In this document: positions 6,776-44,056 of the stretch, piece after piece
Layout: every line of letters starts with the position of its first letter
Numbering within the stretch: the stretch's first letter is position 1
Assembly (NCBI GenBank): GCA_902774245.1
Contig: CACYHQ010000010.1
Location: 1 to 64,000 of the forward strand
DNA from: an uncultured bacterium
GTDB lineage: Bacteria; Verrucomicrobiota; Lentisphaeria; Victivallales; UBA1829
Direction: 5' to 3'
DNA length: 64,000 nucleotides
Program-made: the position numbers and the translations under genes
Notes under the pieces: generated by a model
What the model was told of the DNA's origin: nothing
Database searches by the model: none
The model's input: only the letters and a program-made list of their open reading frames with translations

Positions 6776-6804
6776 ATTATACTCCCCGAAACGGGCTTTG
6801 TCAA
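6776..6804 (-). promoter_or_regulatory. Consensus promoter of HEAT-repeat gene
   Basis: Minus-strand TTGACA and TATAAT are spaced by exactly 17 bp, a perfect match to the sigma-70 consensus. Its position shows that translation of the HEAT gene begins downstream of 6769. Confidence 0.85.
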
Positions 6805-6891: not shown

Positions 6892-6920
6892 TTGATTTTT
6901 CCTTTTTCAGGCGTTATACT
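6892..6920 (+). promoter_or_regulatory. Promoter of glycine-rich protein gene
   Basis: TTGATT and TATACT are separated by 17 bp, 110 bases before the start codon. The TTTGAGTTCAAAA motif (6949-6961) falls in the leader about 22 bases past the expected transcription start. Confidence 0.8.
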
Positions 6921-6961: not shown

Positions 6962-7030
6962 CGAGCCGTGATCCCGTTGAAAACCAATCGTTCCGTTTAC
7001 CTTATTAACCCCCAACATAATGGAGTTCTT

Positions 7031-8152
7031 ATGAATCGTTATGTACACTCGACTGTGATTTCCTGCTCGATCCTCGCAGGTGTCCTTTTGCTCGCATCTT
7101 CTCTCTCCGCGCAGGCTCCTGCCGGTGGCGCGGCTCCCGCTGGCGGCGCGCCCGCGATGGGCGGCTTCGGCGGTTTCGGCGGCGGCGCTCCTGCCGGCGG
7201 TGCACCTGCTATGGGCGGATTCGGCGGCTTTGGCGGCGGCTTCGGCGGCGGCGCTCCTGCCGGCGGTGCACCTGCTATGGGCGGATTCGGCGGCTTTGGC
7301 GGCGGCTTCGGCGGCGGCGCTCCTGCCGGCGGTGCACCCGCGATGGGTGGCTTCGGTGGCTTTGGCGGCGGTTTCGGCGGCGGCGCTCCTGCCGGCGCGG
7401 CTCCTGCCGGTGGCATGGGCGGCCAGCGTCCTGCCGGACAGCAGGGCCAGGGTGGCACGAATCGTCAGGGCGGCGTTCCCGCGGCCGGCGGTCAGCCCGG
7501 TAATCTTCCTGCCGGTGCTGCTCCTGTCGCCGGACAGGGCGGACAGCAGCGTCCGCGTCGTCAGGGCCAGGGCGGACAGGGCCAGGGTCAGCTCGGTCAG
7601 GGCGGTTTCGGTGGTTTCGGCGGCGGCGCTCCCGGCGCCGGTGCTGCTCCCGGAGCAGGCGGTAATCGTCCGCAGGGCCAGGGCGGTTTCGGCCAGGGGG
7701 GCCAGCGTCCGCAGGGCCAAGGCGGCTTCGGCCAGGGGGGCCAGCGTCCGCAGGGCCAGGGCGGCTTCGGCCAGGGCGGCCAGCGTCCGCAGGGGCAGGG
7801 CGGCTTCGGCCAGGGCGGCCAGCGTCCGCAGGGCCAGGGCGGCTTCGGCCAGGGGGGCCAGCGTCCGCAGGGCCAGGGCGGCTTCGGTCAGGGGGGCCAG
7901 CGTCCGCAGGGCCAGGGCGGTTTCGGCCAGGGGGGCCAGCGTCCGCAGGGCGGCATGGGCTTCGGCGGCTTCGGCGGTCAGCCCGGCATGGGCGGACAGC
8001 AGGGCGGCGCGGGTACTCCCAGCATCTCCAGCCAGATTCAGGAAAAGTATCCGGAAGAATACGCCGCGGCTCAGAAACTCCGCATTGAGAATCCCAAGGC
8101 CTATCGCGAGAAAATGCGCGAACTCCAGGGCAAGCTCACCGAGTCCAAGTAA
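7031..8152 (+). CDS. Secreted glycine-rich repeat protein
   Basis: A 373-residue protein with a clear signal peptide (cleavage near Ala27-Gln28), so it is exported. The mature part is mostly low-complexity. Four copies of an 18-22 residue unit, APAGGAPAMGGFGGFGGG..., span about 35-118. Seven exact 13-residue units, RPQGQGGFGQGGQ, span about 213-303. It ends in a short, charged, probably helical segment (about residues 327-373, EKYPEEYAAAQKLRIENPKA). The repeats are also near-identical at DNA level. ATG 7031 follows a GGAG site and a strong promoter, and a strong terminator follows. The function is not recognised; an extracellular matrix or surface role is speculation. It appears monocistronic. 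Confidence 0.8.
   Translation: MNRYVHSTVISCSILAGVLLLASSLSAQAPAGGAAPAGGAPAMGGFGGFGGGAPAGGAPAMGGFGGFGGGFGGGAPAGGAPAMGGFGGFGGGFGGGAPAGGAPAMGGFGGFGGGFGGGAPAGAAPAGGMGGQRPAGQQGQGGTNRQGGVPAAGGQPGNLPAGAAPVAGQGGQQRPRRQGQGGQGQGQLGQGGFGGFGGGAPGAGAAPGAGGNRPQGQGGFGQGGQRPQGQGGFGQGGQRPQGQGGFGQGGQRPQGQGGFGQGGQRPQGQGGFGQGGQRPQGQGGFGQGGQRPQGQGGFGQGGQRPQGGMGFGGFGGQPGMGGQQGGAGTPSISSQIQEKYPEEYAAAQKLRIENPKAYREKMRELQGKLTESK
7133..7384 (+). repeat. Tandem 54/66-bp repeats in glycine-rich gene
   Basis: One 54-bp and three 66-bp in-frame units (starts 7133, 7187, 7253, 7319) encode APAGGAPAMGGFGGFGGG with or without a GFGG extension. Units 2 and 3 are almost identical in sequence, which indicates recent duplication. 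Confidence 0.85.
7667..7939 (+). repeat. Seven tandem 39-bp repeats in glycine-rich gene
   Basis: CGTCCGCAG recurs every 39 bases at 7667, 7706, 7745, 7784, 7823, 7862 and 7901, with a partial eighth unit at 7940. Each unit encodes RPQGQGGFGQGGQ without any amino-acid change. Differences are only a few silent bases, so copy number is likely to vary between strains. Confidence 0.9.
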
Positions 8153-8416: not shown

Positions 8417-11400
8417 ATGCACTCGTTGAGATTCCCCGGCCGTGTGACCGGATTCCTTGCCGGAGCACTCATCGCGGCAGGGACCGCCGTATCCGCCGCA
8501 TCGTTCGAAGACCTGGTCGTACGCTCGACCGACCAGACTGAAGCCATGTTCTGTATCGCGAACGGCGGTCAGGTCGCGTCGATTGTTCTGAGCGGGGTGG
8601 ATTACGGCCCCGTGATCCGCGCGGCGAAGGACCTGAGCGAGGACATAAAGCGCGTGACCGGCACGGCGTCGCCCGTCGAGACGGACGGCAAGGCGCGTCC
8701 GGGCGCGATCCTGGTCGGCACGGTCGGGAAAAGCCCGCTCATCGACGAGCTCGTCAAGGAGAACAAGCTCAACGTCGACGCGGTCAAAGGCAAGTGGGAA
8801 TCGTATCTGATCCAGGTCAGCAAGGACACGCTGGTGATCGCGGGCAGCGACAAACGCGGCACGATCTACGGCATCTACGAGCTGTCGAAGCGCATCGGCG
8901 TCTCCCCGTGGTACTGGTGGGCTGACGTGCCGGTAATCCATTCGGACACGCTGTATGCCTCGGCCGGGACCTACGTGCAGGACCCGCCGAAGGTGAAATA
9001 CCGCGGCATCTTCATCAACGACGAAGAGCCGTCGTTCGGCAACTGGTCGCGCGCCAACTTCGGCGGCATCAATTCCAAGATGTACGCGCACATGTTCGAG
9101 CTGATTCTGCGCCTCAAAGGCAACTATCTGTGGCCCGCGATGTGGGGCAAGGCGTTCAACGAGGACGACCCGCAGAACCCGGTCGTGGCCGACCAGTACG
9201 GCGTGATCATGGGCACCAGCCACCACGAGCCGCTGATGCGAAACCAGGAGGAATGGACGAAGCGCAGCCGCGAGCTCGGCGAGTGGAATTACCGTCAGAA
9301 CGGCGAGAACATGCGGAAGTTCTGGCTGGAGGGCCTGAAGCGCAACGCGAAGTACGACAACCTGCCGACCGTCGGCCTGCGCGGCGACGGCGACCTGCCG
9401 CTCGACCCGAACGCGAATTTCGACAGCAACAAGGAACTGCTGTACCAGCTCTTCCACGACCAGCGCGAGCTGATCCGCGAGGCGTACGGACGCGATCCCG
9501 CCACCGTGCCCGTGCGCCCGCCGGACGACGTCATCATGGCGTTCAGCGACAGCAATTTCGGCTATCTGCTGCAGCTCCCCGCCGAGGAGGACCGCAAACG
9601 CCCCGGATCGCTGGGGCTGTACTACCACATCGACATGAACGGCGGCCCGTGGAACGACCGCTGGATCAGCACGCGCCCGATCCCGCAGATCTGGCATCAG
9701 CTGTACATCGCATATCAGTACAATATCCGCGGGATGTGGATCATCAACGTGGGCGACCTGAAGCCGAAGGAGGCCGAGATCGACTTCATCCTGGATTACG
9801 CCTGGGACCCCGACAGGATCCCGTACTACAAGGTCGGGCACTGGATGGAAGACTGGTGCAGGACCATCTTCCCGGCGGAACACGCCAAAGCGTGCGCGTA
9901 TCTGATCTCGGAGTACATTCGCCTGAACTACATCCGCAAGCCGGAGATCCAGCAGACGCGCATCTGGAGCGCCGTGAATTACACCGAGGCGGACCGATTC
10001 GCCCGCGAATGGCGGAAGATCGCCGACCGCGCCGAGGAACTGAAGAAAAAGATGCCGCCCGAGTACACCGACGTGTTCTATCAGCTGGTGTACTATCCGG
10101 TCGTGGCGGGCGCGGGCACGGCGGAGATCTACACGGAGCTCGCCAAGGCCGACCAGTACGCGAAACAGGGCCGTTCCAGCGCGGCGGTCGCGCTCAAAAA
10201 AGCGCAGGACCTGTTCGAAAAGGACAAACAGCTCTCGGACTTCTACAACAGCGAGAAGATGGCGGGCGGCAAGTGGAAGAACATGATGTCGGACAAGCAC
10301 ATCGGCTACACGCAGTGGAGCATGCCGCAGAACAACTCCCTGCCGCGCATCTCGCGCATGCCGGAACCGGCCGCGGAACCGACGCTCGGCGTCGCCGTGG
10401 AGGGCAGCGAGAAGGCCGCGCCGCACCAGGTCGAAAGCCTGACGCTGCCGACGTTCGATATGCTCTCGGTATCAACGTATGACAAGCCTGCCGCCGGCGA
10501 ATATGGGTATGAGGTCTGGACCGTGTGGGACGGCGGATATCCCGTCACGCTGTTCAACCGTTCGGACAAAGGCTCGATCACCTGCATGATGAAGGCGGAC
10601 CAGCCGTGGGTGAAGACGCTCGAATTCGTGACCGTGGACGGCACGAACGACGTGACGGTCTTCGTCGGCATCGACTGGAGTAAATACCCCGGCGGGAAAG
10701 CGTCCGCGACGCTCACCGTAACGCCTGTAAACGGAGTGATCGAGGAAAAGCCGATCGGTGATCCGGTCAGGATCGCCGTGAACGCGGTCGCCCCCGAAAA
10801 GAACGCCCCCAAGTATCGTGAAGACATGAATGAAGTCTATGCGACCGCCGCTCCCGCTCCGATCGTGATCCCGGCGTGGGATTACGTGAACAAAACCGGC
10901 GCGAACGGCGCGAACTGGAAAGAGGTCGTCGGACTGGGCCGCTGGGGCAACATCGGCAGTTACGGCGGCGCGATGGCGGTGTTCCCCCTGCCGACGCCGG
11001 CCGTGCTGCCCCCGAATCCCGCGCCGACGCTCGAATACCGCGTTTACATCCCGGAACCCGGCAAGGTGACGGTCGACGTGGAGATCATGCCGATCTATCC
11101 CGAGAACCCGACCGCCGGGACGCTCAATATCCGCGAGCTCCGCATCGGCACGGCGTTCGACGACGATCCGGTGAAAGTCACCGACACGCTCGCACGCGAG
11201 TTCAAACGCCTGAACAACGAGGTATTCGAAAACGTCCGCAAGGTGCGCGTGACGCACGACGTGAAGGAAGCCGGACTGCACACGTTCAAAGTCGTGATGG
11301 TCGATCCCGTCGTCGCGGTCGAACGCCTCGTGTTCTACCCCGAACTGGTCCGCAGAAGCAACCTCGGCGCGCCGTTTACCAGGGCGGTCTCGCGCCGTAT

Positions 11401-11503
11401 ATTCGAGGATCCCCGTCCGCTCGAACCGAAAGATGAAAACCTGGGCGAGTATCTGCGCGGTCCCGACTGGCGCGAACAGCGGGAAAAACGCAGAATGAAG
11501 TAA
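8417..11503 (+). CDS. GH115 family glycoside hydrolase (alpha-glucuronidase), secreted
   Basis: A 1028-residue secreted enzyme with a signal peptide over about residues 1-28. Family GH115 removes (4-O-methyl)glucuronic acid from xylan side chains. Family-like segments include RGIFINDEEPSFGNWS, GNYLWPAMWGKAFNEDD, a histidine-rich GTSHHEPLMRNQEEW and IDMNGGPWNDRWISTRP. A beta-rich C-terminal region (about 650-1000) resembles the accessory domains usual in the family, and full length is consistent. The start at ATG 8417 follows GGAG; it has its own promoter. The GH43 lipoprotein gene follows on the same strand, suggesting joint work on glucuronoarabinoxylan. No SusC/SusD genes are nearby. Confidence 0.93.
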   Translation: MHSLRFPGRVTGFLAGALIAAGTAVSAASFEDLVVRSTDQTEAMFCIANGGQVASIVLSGVDYGPVIRAAKDLSEDIKRVTGTASPVETDGKARPGAILVGTVGKSPLIDELVKENKLNVDAVKGKWESYLIQVSKDTLVIAGSDKRGTIYGIYELSKRIGVSPWYWWADVPVIHSDTLYASAGTYVQDPPKVKYRGIFINDEEPSFGNWSRANFGGINSKMYAHMFELILRLKGNYLWPAMWGKAFNEDDPQNPVVADQYGVIMGTSHHEPLMRNQEEWTKRSRELGEWNYRQNGENMRKFWLEGLKRNAKYDNLPTVGLRGDGDLPLDPNANFDSNKELLYQLFHDQRELIREAYGRDPATVPVRPPDDVIMAFSDSNFGYLLQLPAEEDRKRPGSLGLYYHIDMNGGPWNDRWISTRPIPQIWHQLYIAYQYNIRGMWIINVGDLKPKEAEIDFILDYAWDPDRIPYYKVGHWMEDWCRTIFPAEHAKACAYLISEYIRLNYIRKPEIQQTRIWSAVNYTEADRFAREWRKIADRAEELKKKMPPEYTDVFYQLVYYPVVAGAGTAEIYTELAKADQYAKQGRSSAAVALKKAQDLFEKDKQLSDFYNSEKMAGGKWKNMMSDKHIGYTQWSMPQNNSLPRISRMPEPAAEPTLGVAVEGSEKAAPHQVESLTLPTFDMLSVSTYDKPAAGEYGYEVWTVWDGGYPVTLFNRSDKGSITCMMKADQPWVKTLEFVTVDGTNDVTVFVGIDWSKYPGGKASATLTVTPVNGVIEEKPIGDPVRIAVNAVAPEKNAPKYREDMNEVYATAAPAPIVIPAWDYVNKTGANGANWKEVVGLGRWGNIGSYGGAMAVFPLPTPAVLPPNPAPTLEYRVYIPEPGKVTVDVEIMPIYPENPTAGTLNIRELRIGTAFDDDPVKVTDTLAREFKRLNNEVFENVRKVRVTHDVKEAGLHTFKVVMVDPVVAVERLVFYPELVRRSNLGAPFTRAVSRRIFEDPRPLEPKDENLGEYLRGPDWREQREKRRMK

Positions 11504-11563
11504 CCGGATCATCCGGCCGCCGCGTGTGCGAGCGAAAGCAGCGCCGCCCGGCAGACATGCAAA

Positions 11564-11600
11564 GGGGCTGTTGCAAACCTCAGCGGCAAGCAGCAGCCCC
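11564..11600 (+). terminator. Hairpin after GH115, possible terminator
   Basis: An 11-bp stem with one G-U pair (GGGGCTGTTGC with GCAGCAGCCCC) and a 15-base loop is followed by GATCTTTTCC. The T run is weak, so termination is likely but not certain. Confidence 0.5.
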
Positions 11601-11661
11601 GATCTTTTCCTCCGGAGAAGCCCGGTATCGGATTATCGTTTCTTTTTGAGCATTTCCGTTT

Positions 11662-11689
11662 GCTTTTTGTGTTTGCGGCGGTATAGTAT
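11662..11689 (+). promoter_or_regulatory. Promoter of GH43 gene
   Basis: TTGCTT and TATAGT with a 16-bp spacer, 67 bases before the GH43 ATG. It implies that GH43 can be transcribed separately from GH115. Confidence 0.5.
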
Positions 11690-11756
11690 GGGTAACATTT
11701 TTGTTCCGACGGAATCGCGTCTCCGACGCCGCACCAACCAAAGAAAGACCGTAACA

Positions 11757-12890
11757 ATGAACGCACAGAACCGTACCTACAAACTTCGCACCACGATTTC
11801 CGCCCTGCTGCTCACAGCGGTTTGGTTCCCGTCTCTCGTTCAGGTCCTGAGCGGCTGCGCCTCGGAAACGCCGTCGGACGAAGCGCAGACCCCGGCCGCT
11901 CAGACGGCCGAGGCCGTTCAGTCTGCCGTCCAGGCGGCCGCCGCTCAAACTCAGGCTCCGGCGCAGGCTGCGTCCGACCTGAAGGAATACAAGCCGACCG
12001 GAAATCCGATGTTCTCCCACAAATTCACCGCGGACCCCGCGCCGGTCGTGATCGGCGACACGCTGTGGCTGATCACCAGCCACGACGAGACCGCGCCGAA
12101 CGGCAGGTTGAACCGGAATTTCAGGATGCGCGACTGGTGCCTCTTCTCCACGAAGGACATGAAGACGTGGACGGAATACCCGACTCCGCTCTCCGTGAGC
12201 GAGTTCAAGTGGGACGGCACGCACACGGCGTATGCGGCGCAGATGATCCCGCGCGACGGCAAGTATTACCTGTACATCAGCACCAACGGCAACGGCATCG
12301 GCGTGGCGGTCGCGGACAGGCCGGAAGGCCCGTACAAGGACCCCATCGGCAGGCAGCTCGTGACTCCGGCGCAGTGTTTCGCCACGACTCACTCGTGGGC
12401 GTGCATCGACCCGACCGTGTGGATCGACGAAGACGGGCAGGCGTGGCTCGTGTGGGGCAACCGGAAATGCTATTACGCAAAGCTCAAAAAGAACATGGTC
12501 GAGCTGGACGGCCCGGTGAAGACGCTGGACATCGACCTGAAGGACATGCCGTTCGAGGAAGGCCCGTGGATCTTCAAGCGCGACGGCAAGTACTATCTGA
12601 TCTACGCCTGCGGCAACCCCGAAAAGCTCGCCTACGCGATCGGCGACAGGGTCGACGGCCACTTCGAGGCGAAGGGCATCCTGATGGAACGTTCCGGCAA
12701 CTGCGGCTCCAACCATCCGGGCGTGGCGAACTTCAACGGCGAGTGGTATCTCTTCTACCACACCGGCGCCAACGGCGGCGACTTCAACCGCGCGGTCTGC
12801 GTCGACAAAATGACGTTCAACGCGGACGGCACCATCAATCCCGTGCCGTTCTCCAAAGAAGGCATCTTCGGCGCCGCCGAGCAGAAATAA
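11757..12890 (+). CDS. GH43-like glycosidase lipoprotein
   Basis: A 377-residue predicted lipoprotein: signal segment, then lipobox VLSGC (Cys34), then an Ala/Gln-rich linker (about 40-75) and a five-bladed beta-propeller hydrolase. The usual GH43 acidic triad can be placed: general base Asp in FTADPAPVV, pKa-modulating Asp in CIDPTVWID, and general acid Glu in FEEGPWIF. Family members release arabinose or xylose from plant polysaccharides; the exact substrate is not evident. ATG 11757 is preferred over upstream frames because the promoter at 11662-11689 and the signal peptide both point to it. A broken phosphatase gene follows 3 bases after the stop. Confidence 0.9.
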   Translation: MNAQNRTYKLRTTISALLLTAVWFPSLVQVLSGCASETPSDEAQTPAAQTAEAVQSAVQAAAAQTQAPAQAASDLKEYKPTGNPMFSHKFTADPAPVVIGDTLWLITSHDETAPNGRLNRNFRMRDWCLFSTKDMKTWTEYPTPLSVSEFKWDGTHTAYAAQMIPRDGKYYLYISTNGNGIGVAVADRPEGPYKDPIGRQLVTPAQCFATTHSWACIDPTVWIDEDGQAWLVWGNRKCYYAKLKKNMVELDGPVKTLDIDLKDMPFEEGPWIFKRDGKYYLIYACGNPEKLAYAIGDRVDGHFEAKGILMERSGNCGSNHPGVANFNGEWYLFYHTGANGGDFNRAVCVDKMTFNADGTINPVPFSKEGIFGAAEQK

Positions 12891-19895: not shown

Positions 19896-19946
19896 TGATC
19901 TTTCCTGTGCAATCCCCAATACCCCTCACCATAAGGATTGCTACAA

Positions 19947-21464
19947 ATGAAAGACCCACAATCCACTCGAAAGACAAACGCAAACTGCCTGAAACATTTT
20001 GCTTTGTTGATCCTTGGCGCCAGCCTGGCCGGAACACAGTATCTCCCGGCGCAGGAACCCGCGAAGGAAGTCCGCACCATCAAACTGCTCCAGGACGATG
20101 CCCAGGTCCGCTTCGCCAGCAGGCTCTATGAGCTGAAATACACGAAGCCGACCGACGTCCGCCCGTTCATCCTCGCCGCAATCACCCGCTACAATGCGTT
20201 TTCGCTGGTGGACCGTGTGAACAACAACAATGCCGACAAGCACTATCTGCTTGTCTCGACCGGAGAGGACTTTATCCCCTACGTGGACGCGCTGATCGCC
20301 GGACTGGACGTGCCGGGCAAGCCGGACGAATACGGCTCCATCATCGAGGGGACCGGCGTCACCCGGGTGACCTATCACCCGAACTACCGCCTCGGGACCG
20401 AGATGCTCCGCATCATCAACGCCGGGTTGAGGAGCCCGGAAGGCACGATCTACCTGAACGAGGACACGAACACGATCTACTGGAAGGACGACCGGGCCGC
20501 CGCGATGGCCGCGCTCAACTGGATCAAGTATCTGGACCGGCCGCTTCCGCAGGTCAACCTCAAGCTCAAATACTACGAGATCCGCGAAAGCAAGCTGCGC
20601 GACATCGGGCTGGACTACCTGGCATGGAAGAACGGCCCCGGCCTCGACATCTTTTCCGCCGGATTCGACACCGGGAAGATCTTCTCCAACGAGGCGGTCT
20701 GGAATCTCGTCGGCGGGGCGACTCAGCTGGTTGACCTCACGAAAGATTTCTCTTCGGGCTGGGGCTACGGCGGATTCTTCACCGCGCCGAAGTTCGATCT
20801 GAGCTTCATCCGCGTGCTTCAGCAGTCCGGCAACGCGAAACTCGCCGCGGAAGCCGAACTCACGTTCGTGAATACGCCGGTCTACGAGACGGAAGAGCAG
20901 AACCAGCACCTGCCGAAAATCTACAAAGCCAGCCTCGTGCCCGGCTATGAGAACATCACGAAGGACGACGACGACCGCATGAGCGTGGTCACGGGCGGCG
21001 ACAGCAGCATCACGCTCTCCGTGATCAACCCGGTCATCTGTTTCGACGCCGCAAGGGAGGAACAGGCCGCGCTGAGGGGCCGTATCCCCTCCACGCAGGA
21101 ATATTATGAAACGTCCGACGGCGGGGTCGTGTTCGCCTACAAGCTCGCGTCGAAGAGCGTGACGGAGCGCAGCAACCGCGGCGACGAACTCGGCGACGTC
21201 GCCACAGCCTCCGGCGAGCTTACGCTCGGGTTCAAGACCGAAAAGCTCCTGGCGTCCTATGTCCGCGAAAACGACGTGGAGCAGACCGTAGGCATCCCGT
21301 TCCTGGTGAAGATCCCCGTGCTGAAATACCTCTTCGGCACCACCACCAGCATCAGGGAGCGGACCTACGTCGTCGTGACCGCCGAAGCCTCGCTCGTTCA
21401 CCCGGACGGCCCGATCCTGGCTGCCGAACCTATCGTCGAATCCGATTTCGGTCCCGACCGCTGA
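19947..21464 (+). CDS. Secretin-like protein (first paralogue)
   Basis: A 505-residue exported protein with a signal sequence (to about residue 36). It has N-domain-like repeats (VRFASRLYELKYTKPTDVRPFI, then ALIAGLDVPG) and a C-terminal secretin core. The core's signature is VGIPFLVKIPVLKYLFGTTTSIRERTYVVVTAE, close to the VPxLGDIPxLGxLF motif of GspD/PilQ secretins. It would form an outer-membrane ring. ATG 19947 has an AAGGA site and is preferred over TTG 19938. The second paralogue starts 20 bases later. No other secretion or pilus gene is present, so the system it serves is unknown. Confidence 0.8.
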   Translation: MKDPQSTRKTNANCLKHFALLILGASLAGTQYLPAQEPAKEVRTIKLLQDDAQVRFASRLYELKYTKPTDVRPFILAAITRYNAFSLVDRVNNNNADKHYLLVSTGEDFIPYVDALIAGLDVPGKPDEYGSIIEGTGVTRVTYHPNYRLGTEMLRIINAGLRSPEGTIYLNEDTNTIYWKDDRAAAMAALNWIKYLDRPLPQVNLKLKYYEIRESKLRDIGLDYLAWKNGPGLDIFSAGFDTGKIFSNEAVWNLVGGATQLVDLTKDFSSGWGYGGFFTAPKFDLSFIRVLQQSGNAKLAAEAELTFVNTPVYETEEQNQHLPKIYKASLVPGYENITKDDDDRMSVVTGGDSSITLSVINPVICFDAAREEQAALRGRIPSTQEYYETSDGGVVFAYKLASKSVTERSNRGDELGDVATASGELTLGFKTEKLLASYVRENDVEQTVGIPFLVKIPVLKYLFGTTTSIRERTYVVVTAEASLVHPDGPILAAEPIVESDFGPDR

Positions 21465-21484: not shown

Positions 21485-23110
21485 ATGAAAACCATGATGA
21501 AACATCTTTTCGCAACCGCGTTTCTCCTCGCAGCCGTCTCCGTGTTTTCCGATGATGATGTGTCGGTCGATTTCACCCCGCACGGGATTCCCGGCTCGCC
21601 CCAGGCGTACAACAACGCCCCCACGGAAGGCTACGGCAGCAGCACCGTCCAGACGCAGATCCGCGTGGACCTGAAGGACGGCGAAGATGCCGTTCATTTC
21701 ATCCGCGGCAATACCGACCCCTTCGTCATCACGAAGCTGTACGAGCTGAAACACACCAATCCCTATACGATCCGAGGCTATATTCAGGGCGTGGTGAATG
21801 CCACACAGGTCGTGGGAAACCCCGTTGCGGTTGACGCCGTCAGGTACAATGACGGACGCGGCATCGTGCTGGTTTCCGCCGAGGACTACCGGTTTGAGAA
21901 CCGCGGAAAAGGCGACAGCATCGACGAGATCATCGCGGGTCTGGATCAGCCCGGCATGGAGCTCATCACGGGCAAGGGCCTGTTCCTCTACTTCCCGAAA
22001 GCGAACACTGCCGCCAACCTCCGCGAAATGCTTCTGAGAGTCGGCGCGACCACCGAGGACGTCGAATTCTCGCACGGCGTGGACAAACTGGTCGTCGACG
22101 GCGGCCTGAACGCTCTCTTCGTCGCCTCGTCCTACTGGAGCTGGAACGGCATCAAGGAGCAGCTGGAATCGTATGACAAGCCGATGCCGGAAATCCGCCT
22201 CTCGTACTGCCTCTACGAGGTCAGCACGGAGAACGACGACAAACTCGGCGTCGACTTCCAGAGCTGGAAGAACAACGACGGGATCGACTTCTTCTCCGTC
22301 GGCGGCCGCTACCGCAACAACTGGGCGCGGACGTTCGCGGGCGGCATCGACGGCTCCCACAGCAGCCGCACCGATTACTTCAACTTCAACCCGAAGTGGA
22401 ACACGAAGTATTTCGACTTCCTGACCTCCACCGGACGCGCGAAGGTCGTCACGCAGGGCGTCATCACCGCGAAGAACCGCCGCAAATCGGAGATCTCCGT
22501 CGGCTCCGGCCTCTTCTACGAGGAGGAAGACCCGATCGATGACACCTCCATCAACGACGGCATCCTGATCGACGGCAAGCCGAAACTTCCCGCCGGCGCG
22601 GACGTCCCGATCGAACACGGCAACCGTCAGAACACGAAGGCGTCCGAAGGCTTCAAGTTCAGCATGGAGGTCACCCCGGTCGTGGCCGAAAAGGCGTCCG
22701 TCCTGCCGATCAAGGTCTCCGGCGTGAGCCTGCTCGGCTGGAACAGCGACGGTACGCCCCGCCTCAGCAGGTCCGATTTCGAGACGGAGGTCCACCTCGG
22801 ATACGAGGCGCGCGACTTCGTGATCGGCGGCATCAAGCGCAAGCAGATCGTCCGCAGCGTGTCCGGGCTTCCGATCCTGAAGGACATCCCGATCCTCGGC
22901 TGGGCCTTCTCCTCGGAATCCGAATCCGCCCGCGAGACAGAGCTGATCCTCTCCGTACACGCCGAATATGCCCGGCCGTCCGACAACGTGCCGGAATCGC
23001 TCCGCGACGAGCTGAACGCCACGGAGAACGATCTGATCCACGGCATCGAACATCCGATCACAAACCTCGGATTCGAGCAGTTCGGCCTGGATTCGAAGAC
23101 GATCGAATAA
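21485..23110 (+). CDS. Secretin-like protein (second paralogue)
   Basis: A 541-residue exported protein with a signal peptide ending near Ser22-Asp23. It parallels the upstream gene throughout: LYELKHTNPYTIRGYI matches LYELKYTKPTDVRPFI, GVDFQSWKNNDGIDFFS matches GLDYLAWKNGPGLDIFS, and the C-terminal secretin signature is VSGLPILKDIPILGWAFSS. The pair clearly arose by duplication but has diverged widely. An AAAGGAG site precedes ATG 21485. The two proteins may form a mixed ring or serve two machines. A bidirectional terminator follows. Confidence 0.8.
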   Translation: MKTMMKHLFATAFLLAAVSVFSDDDVSVDFTPHGIPGSPQAYNNAPTEGYGSSTVQTQIRVDLKDGEDAVHFIRGNTDPFVITKLYELKHTNPYTIRGYIQGVVNATQVVGNPVAVDAVRYNDGRGIVLVSAEDYRFENRGKGDSIDEIIAGLDQPGMELITGKGLFLYFPKANTAANLREMLLRVGATTEDVEFSHGVDKLVVDGGLNALFVASSYWSWNGIKEQLESYDKPMPEIRLSYCLYEVSTENDDKLGVDFQSWKNNDGIDFFSVGGRYRNNWARTFAGGIDGSHSSRTDYFNFNPKWNTKYFDFLTSTGRAKVVTQGVITAKNRRKSEISVGSGLFYEEEDPIDDTSINDGILIDGKPKLPAGADVPIEHGNRQNTKASEGFKFSMEVTPVVAEKASVLPIKVSGVSLLGWNSDGTPRLSRSDFETEVHLGYEARDFVIGGIKRKQIVRSVSGLPILKDIPILGWAFSSESESARETELILSVHAEYARPSDNVPESLRDELNATENDLIHGIEHPITNLGFEQFGLDSKTIE

Positions 23111-41710: not shown

Positions 41711-44056
41711 ATGTTCGGATCTACGTCCATCTGGTGGATCGCTCCTGTCTGCTCCATCATCGCCCTTCTTTCCGCCGCCTTCTGCTACATCCTGATGAAG
41801 CGCGCCGGCACGGGCAACGAACGCATGGAGGAGATCGCCGGATACGTGCGCGACGGCGCGATGGCGTACTTGAAACAGCAGTATTCACGCGTCGGCATCG
41901 TCTTCGCCGTGCTCTTCGTGATCTTCGCGATCCTGGCGGTCCTGAAGCTCCAGAACCCCTTCGTCCCGGTCGCGTTCCTGACCGGCGGCTTCTTCTCCGG
42001 CCTCTGCGGCTTCGTGGGCATGAAGACCGCCACCTGCGCGTCCAGCCGCACGGCGCAGGGCGCGAGCGAAAGCCTGAACCGCGGCCTTCAGGTGGCGTTC
42101 CGCTCCGGCGCGGTCATGGGACTCGCCGTGGTCGGGTTCGGCCTCTTTGACATCACCGCGTGGTATTTCATTCTTGACCGTCTGGTCTACACGCCCGAGC
42201 ACATGGCGCAGGGCCTTTCGTTCCTCGGATTCCAGCTCGTCGCGCCCGGATTCGACGTTTCGCACAAGTTCATCGAGATCACGACCACCATGCTGACCTT
42301 CGGCATGGGCGCGTCCACGCAGGCGCTTTTCGCCCGCGTCGGCGGCGGCATCTACACGAAGGCGGCTGACGTCGGCGCGGACCTTGTCGGCAAGGTCGAG
42401 GCGGGCATCCCCGAGGACGACCCGCGCAACCCCGCCACCATCGCGGACAACGTCGGCGACAACGTCGGCGACGTCGCGGGCATGGGCGCGGACCTCTACG
42501 AATCCTACTGCGGCTCCATCCTTTCCACCGCCGCCCTCGGCGCTGCCATCCCCGCCGCGATGAAGACCACCTGCGGCTCCATCCTCTCCACCGCCGACCT
42601 CGGCGCGGCCATCCCCGCCGCGATGAAGACCACGGTCGCCTACGTGAACGCCCCGATGATCGTCGCGGGCATCGGCGTGGTGCTGTCGCTGATCGGCATC
42701 TTCGCGGTGCGCTGCAAGGAAGGTGCGAGCATGGGCACGCTGCTCCGCGCATTGCGTCTCGGCACCTGGGGCAGTTCCGTCCTGATCGTCGTCGCATGCG
42801 CGATCCTCGCCGGATGCGGCATCCTCACCTGGGGCGTGTTCGGCGCGATCGTCTCCGGCCTGATCGCCGGCGTGGTGATCGGCTACAGCACCGAATACTA
42901 CACCTCGGACGAATACGGCCCGACCAAGGAACTCGCCGCGCAGGCGCAGATGGGCCCGGCCCCGACCATCATCTACGGTCTTTCCCTCGGCATGCTCTCC
43001 GCCGCGATCCCGGTCGTCGCGACCGTCGCCGCGATCATCAGTTCGTTCGCCTTCGCGGGCGGTTTCACGCAGGGCACGATCTTCGGCCTCTACGGCATCG
43101 GATTCGCCGCCGTCGGCATGCTCGCCACGCTCGGTATCACGCTTGCCACGGACGCCTACGGGCCCATCGCCGACAACGCCGGCGGCAACGCCGAGATGTC
43201 CGCGCTCCCGCCGCACGTCCGCGAACGCACTGACGCCCTCGACATGCTCGGCAACACCACGGCCGCCACGGGCAAGGGATTCGCCATCGGGTCCGCCGCC
43301 CTCACCGCCATGGCGCTGCTCGCCGCCGAAATCCAGGAGATCGAGATCTGGGGCGGCAAGTTCAACGCGTTCCCGATGGAGGTGAAGGCGAAACTCCTGC
43401 TGGATTCCGATCACTTCGCCATCCTCGTCGATTTCTTCAAGATCAACGTCATGAACCCGATGTTCCTTTGCGGATGCTTCCTCGGCGCCATGATGGCGTT
43501 TGTCTTCTGCGCGCTCACCATGAAGGCCGTCGGCCGCGCCGCCGGGCGCATGGTCGAGGAGGTCCGCCGCCAGTTCCGCACCATCCCCGGCATCATGGAC
43601 GGAACCGGCAAGCCCGATTACGCCCGCTGCGTGGCGATCTCAACCAAGGGCGCGCAGCACGAGATGATGCTCCCCGCGCTCCTTGCCATCATCATCCCGG
43701 TCGCAACCGGCCTGATCCTCGGCGTGGCCGGCATCATGGGCCTGCTCATCGGCGGCCTCACCTGCGGTTTCTCCCTCGCCTGCATGCTGAACAACGCCGG
43801 CGGCGCGTGGGACAACGCCAAGAAGCACATCGAAAAAGGCAATTTCGGCGGCAAGAAGCTCCCGGACGGCACCAAGAACCCCGTCCACGGCGCGGCCGTC
43901 ATCGGCGACACCGTCGGCGATCCCTGCAAGGACACCAGCGGTCCGGCCCTGAACATCCTCGTGAAGCTCATGAGCATGGTCGCGGTCGTCTTCACGCCGC
44001 TCTTCATCAAGGTCGCGCCCGCCATTCAGGAATGGCTCGGCCTCATCCAGAAGTGA
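41711..44056 (+). CDS. hppA: Membrane-bound ion-pumping pyrophosphatase with internal duplication
   Basis: A 781-residue polytopic enzyme that hydrolyses pyrophosphate and pumps protons or sodium ions. Active-site motifs are [38 protein letters not shown] and [35 protein letters not shown] has alanine where potassium-independent enzymes have lysine, so it belongs to the potassium-dependent group; the pumped ion is not decided. Just after the first active-site motif a 21-residue segment ([21 protein letters not shown]) is repeated in tandem with one change (A to D). GGAGG precedes ATG 41711, and a strong terminator follows. Confidence 0.94.
42509..42634 (+). repeat. 63-bp in-frame tandem duplication inside hppA
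   Basis: Unit 1 (42509-42571) and unit 2 (42572-42634) encode the same 21 residues except one Ala/Asp change. Several silent differences (for example TCCTTTCC versus TCCTCTCC) show that the copies have begun to diverge. Confidence 0.9.

Follow-up and report, generated by a model that had tools for sequence, protein, structure and literature searches.

Which part of a protein that consists largely of glycine-rich repeats is conserved, and what could this part do? In this study, we explored the question for a gene of an uncultured bacterium at positions 7031 to 8152 of the window, a term that denotes the whole stretch of 64,000 nucleotides analysed here. The window is part of contig 10 of a host genome that spans 2.84 Mb on 41 contigs and is 86% complete; we infer its lineage to be a rumen genus of the Victivallales. 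Comparisons covered 13 genomes of this genus, 197 genomes of the class and a phylum sample of 387 genomes. The original prediction of an exported repeat protein was right in this respect, but the conserved part is the C-terminal tail and not the repeats. It missed that the tail is, from its homologies, common to exported enzymes and related to a segment of a protein whose gene heads an operon for the type II secretion system (T2SS).

Architecture and expression signals of the repeat gene

The features discussed below are as follows.

6892–6920, + strand: promoter-like site TTGATT-17-TATACT, 9/12 matches, conserved in orthologues
7022–7025, + strand: ribosome-binding site GGAG, read from the sequence
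7031–8152, + strand: open reading frame of the window gene, 373 residues, translated
7031–7117, + strand: signal-peptide-like start, residues 1–29, with a hydrophobic core and a cleavage site placed by eye between AQA and P
7168–7397, + strand: 66-bp repeat array encoding 22-residue GAPAGGAPAMGGFGGFGGGFGG-type units, 3.5 copies, 95% matches (TRF)
7667–7951, + strand: 39-bp repeat array encoding 13-residue QRPQGQGGFGQGG units, 7.3 copies, 95% matches (TRF)
8012–8149, + strand: C-terminal tail of 46 residues, a shared module with homologues at four other places of the genome and three predicted helices
8190–8220, + strand: terminator-like hairpin, a 13-pair stem followed by TTTTTC
8417–11503, + strand: neighbouring GH115 family protein (PF15979, E 1.7e-113), by family a xylan side-chain enzyme, probably exported
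11526–12890, + strand: neighbouring GH43-like gene, given as the longest open reading frame, the true start probably lying later

The protein runs from the signal-peptide-like start through two Gly-rich repeat arrays into the charged tail. Export can be retained as probable on the basis of this start, which reaches a KD(19) peak of 2.1 within the first 40 residues, as judged by hydropathy rather than by a dedicated predictor, and which is kept in the loci L040, L094 and L097. The two predicted repeat families were recovered as the 66-bp and 39-bp arrays, and the seven 13-residue units said to be free of amino-acid changes correspond to residues 217–307, a tandem of seven identical QGGFGQGGQRPQG units. 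The low complexity of the protein is evident from these arrays and from its 295-residue spacer, in which 136 G, 47 Q and 22 F were counted. The tail, described beforehand as charged and conserved-looking, contains nine K+R and seven D+E, and homologues of it were found in 13 of 13 genomes of the genus.

The gene had also been credited with a strong promoter and a terminator of its own. CTTGA and TATACTAT of the promoter are kept in 4 of 4 orthologous loci, as is AACATAATGGAG at the ribosome-binding site in 4 of 4 orthologues; the -35 and -10 elements and GGAG are present in all four orthologues having upstream sequence, and the terminator stem is recognisable at 5 of 5 orthologous loci. Since the scan for terminator-like sites, with 3 sites against 2.5 expected, is not significant by itself, it is this conservation and not the scan scores that better supports a promoter and terminator belonging to the gene. 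Both are its own and conserved, but the word strong could not be sustained for a promoter matching at only 9 of 12 positions. On the minus strand, a perfect 12/12 match to a sigma-70-type promoter (6776–6804) lies upstream of a divergent HEAT-like gene.

The window gene sits between this HEAT-like gene and the GH115 gene, outside the T2SS operon and with no T2SS core genes near it. Partners of the neighbouring GH43 with 83–88% identity adjoin the tail gene in L040, L041, L048 and L094, where GH43 follows the tail gene with no GH115 match in between; the upstream HEAT-like gene is found again in L094. Further along the window, two adjacent genes (19938–21464 and 21485–23110) both show secretin-domain matches, of which all 13 genus genomes contain 8–15 each, and positions 42508–42633 hold two copies of a 63-bp tandem repeat with 95% matches.

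Tail carriers and their evolution

Searching with the tail alone, as had been proposed at the outset, yielded relatives with other repeats and other domains. Four further places were found in the host genome (E 8.4e-14 to 8.4e-8), so that the carriers number five: an esterase-family protein (Pfam Abhydrolase_2, DLH), a GH43 protein (137.6 bits against a cut-off of 32.2), two helical Gly-rich proteins and the window protein. The genus holds 44 copies, spread over 13 of 13 genomes, and the match ends 0–8 residues before the C-terminus in all 44. Nine copies are cut by contig ends and were left out of the type assignment; the others comprise 5 repeat-only proteins (L041 being counted here because of the GH43 beside it), 13 esterases (7 single, 4 double and 2 with N-terminal repeats like those of the window gene), 15 helical Gly-rich proteins, one GH43 and one Sel1-repeat protein. 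The initial concern that the tail might have no homologue anywhere is thereby removed for genome and genus alike.

Neither Pfam nor NCBIfam has a family that covers the tail, and NCBIfam returned none for the window protein. At E 1e-10, the genus tail profile finds only two more genomes among the 197 of the class. The tail is missing from the GH115 protein, from the GH43-like neighbour and from four genus esterases that were read (L209–L212). As esterase relatives from outside the genus end without a Gly-rich tail in 8 of 8 proteins read (12 fetched), tail and spacer were probably added within the genus lineage. A weak tail match (E 1.76) was further noted in L113 on contig 21 of the genome, a GGFGG-rich protein that looks exported and contains charged, hairpin-like helices.

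In 10 of 10 orthologue pairs, dN/dS of the tail is below 1 (0.11–0.63, rough values from 46 codons), indicating purifying selection; the tail tree comprises about 46 columns and omits L024, L033 and the duplicate loci L006–L021. The spacer behaves differently, since the length change predicted from near-identical DNA repeats is seen between species: orthologues beginning with MNRYVHS have 373, 360, 205 and 163 residues and differ in their repeat units. To judge from sequence, the Gly/Gln/Phe repeats form a spacer that can be extended and evolves fast. Differing repeat units would also be expected from a neutral history, in which Gly-rich DNA spreads by repeat recombination and carries the tail along, the window gene being what is left of an esterase gene after loss of the enzyme. 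L048, beside the corresponding GH43, agrees with such a history in combining an esterase and a tail of the esterase type with N-terminal repeats like those of the window gene, as do two tailed single-esterase genes, L185 (contig 5) and L186 (G001), which are frame-broken at different points inside the Gly-rich linker, be it by phase variation or by assembly error. We nevertheless judge a relic improbable, given that the repeat-only form occurs in five species with conserved promoter, ribosome-binding site, terminator and tail, and that neither the dN/dS values nor the C-terminal position in 44 of 44 copies fits mere hitchhiking.

AlphaFold2 models the tail as three helices (7–14, 16–28 and 30–47; mean pLDDT 83.6, pTM 0.56) and the related region of the operon protein described below as helices around a low-confidence linker (pLDDT 78.5, pTM 0.44). 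The compact three-helix prediction, and the Gly-rich sequence that always precedes the tail in the copies read, would suit a cap for the folding, stability or protection from proteolysis of low-complexity C-termini, unrelated to localisation. We regard such a cap as quite improbable, because it leaves the linkage to the T2SS operon unexplained and other GGFGG proteins of the genome end without the tail. Foldseek against the PDB gave no match at E 0.001 for either model (two matches each, E 7.4–9.4). Three candidate relationships were dismissed: YnzC, the best match of the A1 profile against PDB sequences (E 0.053), was not taken as homology; a Pfam scan of 16 rows of A3 gave 69 scattered weak families, judged to be chance matches on charged helices (the best in the listed matches being PBC, 2e-5 in 2 rows); and for the helical proteins NCBIfam gave PTPDL as best match, with 16 bits against a cut-off of 200.

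Linkage to the type II secretion operon

One of the tail relatives in the host genome (E 8.4e-8, 53% over 43 residues) is a helical protein on contig 3, whose gene directly precedes gspL, followed by gspM, -C, -D, -E and -F. The tail is homologous to the last hairpin of this exported protein. GspD, GspE and GspF score above the Pfam cut-offs; GspL, GspM and GspC were assigned by similarity and gene order, with Pfam scores (for a relative) that were weak and below cut-off or absent. With regard to the family of T2SS-linked hairpin proteins as defined here, the window protein shares the homology of its tail with the gspL-upstream protein but not the location in the operon.

Proteins containing two to four related hairpins were retrieved beyond the genus by profile A1 or A3, with E values of tail-profile matches from 1e-8 to 8e-3. 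A3 matches 98 of the 197 class genomes, 85 of these outside the genus, and the surroundings of gspL were read in 34 of the 85. In 29 of these 34, the hairpin gene immediately precedes gspL and shares its strand, the alignment starts of hairpin protein and gspL being 4–236 nt apart; in four it is not beside gspL (G040, G020, G124 and G195), and in G189 it is cut by the contig end. Across the phylum sample, 69 of 387 genomes have a hairpin match. All but one belong to the order, the exception being a partial match (E 1.9e-7).

Six of the 13 genus genomes show the linkage. The other seven lack a full-length GspL match in the assembly, and secretins are found in 13 of 13. Among nine gspD contigs checked, eight start in the Gly-rich end of gspC, and six of these eight belong to the seven genomes without GspL, so that the missing GspL probably reflects a failure to assemble Gly-rich DNA. 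More generally, contigs repeatedly stop inside Gly-rich genes (L247–L253, L255), which removes these genes and those next to them from the metagenome-assembled genomes.

The operon linkage bears directly on a second way of reading the tail, namely surface assembly with no role in secretion. Tails would associate among themselves or with a partner on the surface, and a hydrated matrix of Gly-rich repeats would hold esterases, GH43 and the repeat protein on the cell, in the manner of a scaffold but lacking cohesin and dockerin; the hairpin protein of the operon would be an anchor, incidentally co-expressed with the T2SS. Tails on xylan-type accessory enzymes, the existence of a repeat-only carrier, the CAZyme neighbours and a genome without a cohesin match all agree with this, and Gly/Phe-rich sequence is reported elsewhere to phase-separate. 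Taken alone, however, surface assembly leaves the hairpin gene before gspL in 29 of 34 genomes unexplained, and no surface-binding domain was seen, leaving it a possible but rather doubtful reading. The matrix, adhesion or phase-separating protein suggested at the outset may likewise be what the gene encodes.

Glycine-rich sequence is also a feature of the secretion system itself. GspC ends in it in 12 of 13 genus genomes (G003 was not determinable), whereas its end outside the genus is rich in Q, M, N and R; the highest Gly share over 60 residues is 0.53–0.75 in the genus versus 0.12–0.42 outside. The Gly contents of GspC and hairpin protein show a rank correlation of 0.66 (n=29), or 0.47 outside the genus (n=25), to which little weight is given as relatedness is ignored; two cut GspC rows were left out. 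A second GspC-like gene (L105:1473–2783 / L151; contig 1, about 283856), with 23.9 bits against a cut-off of 27, ends in 12 GGFGG repeats and has no other T2SS core gene within 14 kb. The GGFGG pattern occurs in nine genes of the genome, by eye seven with an export or membrane feature and two cut or frame-broken. At the DNA level, 17 matches face 13 for the reversed pattern, a control that is not independent because GGFGG repeats read much alike backwards, and no significance is claimed. The informative finding is the difference between genomes: all 13 of the genus have 5–32 matches, compared with a single match in each of 4 among 48 others. A GGFGG stretch and two T2SS-linked hairpins lie inside a GH9-like cellulase, interrupting it, in all three genomes read (L150:3644–7036 on contig 1, L152 and L216; six further matches have the same extent), the call GH9-like resting on CelD_N above its cut-off and on GH9 below its cut-off and aligned only in its first part.

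Proposed role of the tail

Sequence sharing, C-terminal position and operon linkage lead us to regard the tail as a portable part tied to the T2SS, and they suggest a previously undescribed tag that ties enzymes to it. We give about an even chance to a model in which the tail acts as a portable module that links certain exported enzymes of fibre degradation to the T2SS, for passage or for surface retention; the window protein would be exported as a carrier of this small helical module, with no catalysis of its own. The tail would derive from, or share an ancestor with, the last hairpin of the exported protein at the operon head. The window protein would cross the inner membrane by its signal peptide, and in the periplasm its tail may dock on the T2SS, via the operon hairpin protein or via the platform with the Gly-rich GspC end. 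The tailed protein would then pass the outer membrane and be released or, more likely, be kept at the surface together with tailed enzymes, the Gly/Gln/Phe repeats serving as an extendable spacer. The tail cannot be a general T2SS signal, since the genome has only five tailed proteins and also many exported enzymes without it.

Known systems offer partial parallels. T2SS pilotins, for example AspS, are small helical exported proteins encoded with the T2SS. The operon hairpin protein resembles them in these respects, but differs in its type I-looking signal peptide, its Gly/Arg-rich sequence, its several hairpins and the recurrence of its hairpin on enzymes; it could be pilotin-like or an unrelated envelope factor. 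As in the cellulosome dockerin, one C-terminal module is found on several plant-fibre enzymes; a cellulosome itself was rejected, as the tail proteins scanned contain no dockerin and cohesin gave 0 matches in the 86% complete genome.

Recruitment of T2SS cargo is described as elusive (PMC7949064) and its recognition as poorly understood (PMC12369372). In Vibrio, the C-terminal PDZ domain of GspC (EpsC) selects one substrate, VesB, whose Ig-fold is reported to be graftable (PMC12369372). Taken together with the Pel3 loops (PMC7949064), this resembles our case in that part of the cargo decides recruitment, flexible regions matter and, for EpsC, a GspC C-terminal domain selects a cargo subset. 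It differs in that the module here is dedicated and homologous to a T2SS-operon protein, and in that the GspC end in the genus is Gly-rich low-complexity sequence instead of a PDZ domain. There is also a formal likeness to GlyGly-CTERM/rhombosortase proteins, in which a short C-terminal module behind an unstructured linker is found on unrelated exported proteins and is tied to the T2SS and the cell surface; there the C-terminal motif is reported to give membrane association, whereas outer-membrane passage needs a second signal (PMC13393428). Unlike GlyGly-CTERM, the tail is a charged helical hairpin without a hydrophobic segment and without an NCBIfam match, and membership was rejected since 39 of 39 tail ORFs have KD(19) of at most 0.41 in the last 60 residues and no C-terminal transmembrane segment.

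Our literature search, with subscription journals mostly outside its reach, found no description of the tail module. With its homology to a secretion-operon protein and its presence on several enzymes, this short module makes a concrete candidate for a tag that recruits or retains proteins. FG repeats act at nuclear pores, and a comparable matching of low-complexity sequence might act as a secretion gate here, with the Gly/Phe-rich repeats of GspC drawing like repeats of the cargo and the tail as the specific docking part. We consider this gate unlikely; if it existed, repeat expansion in GspC, operon hairpin protein and cargo would constitute one co-evolving recruitment code. For rumen Lentisphaeria, the tail hints at a so far undescribed organisation of fibre-degrading enzymes.
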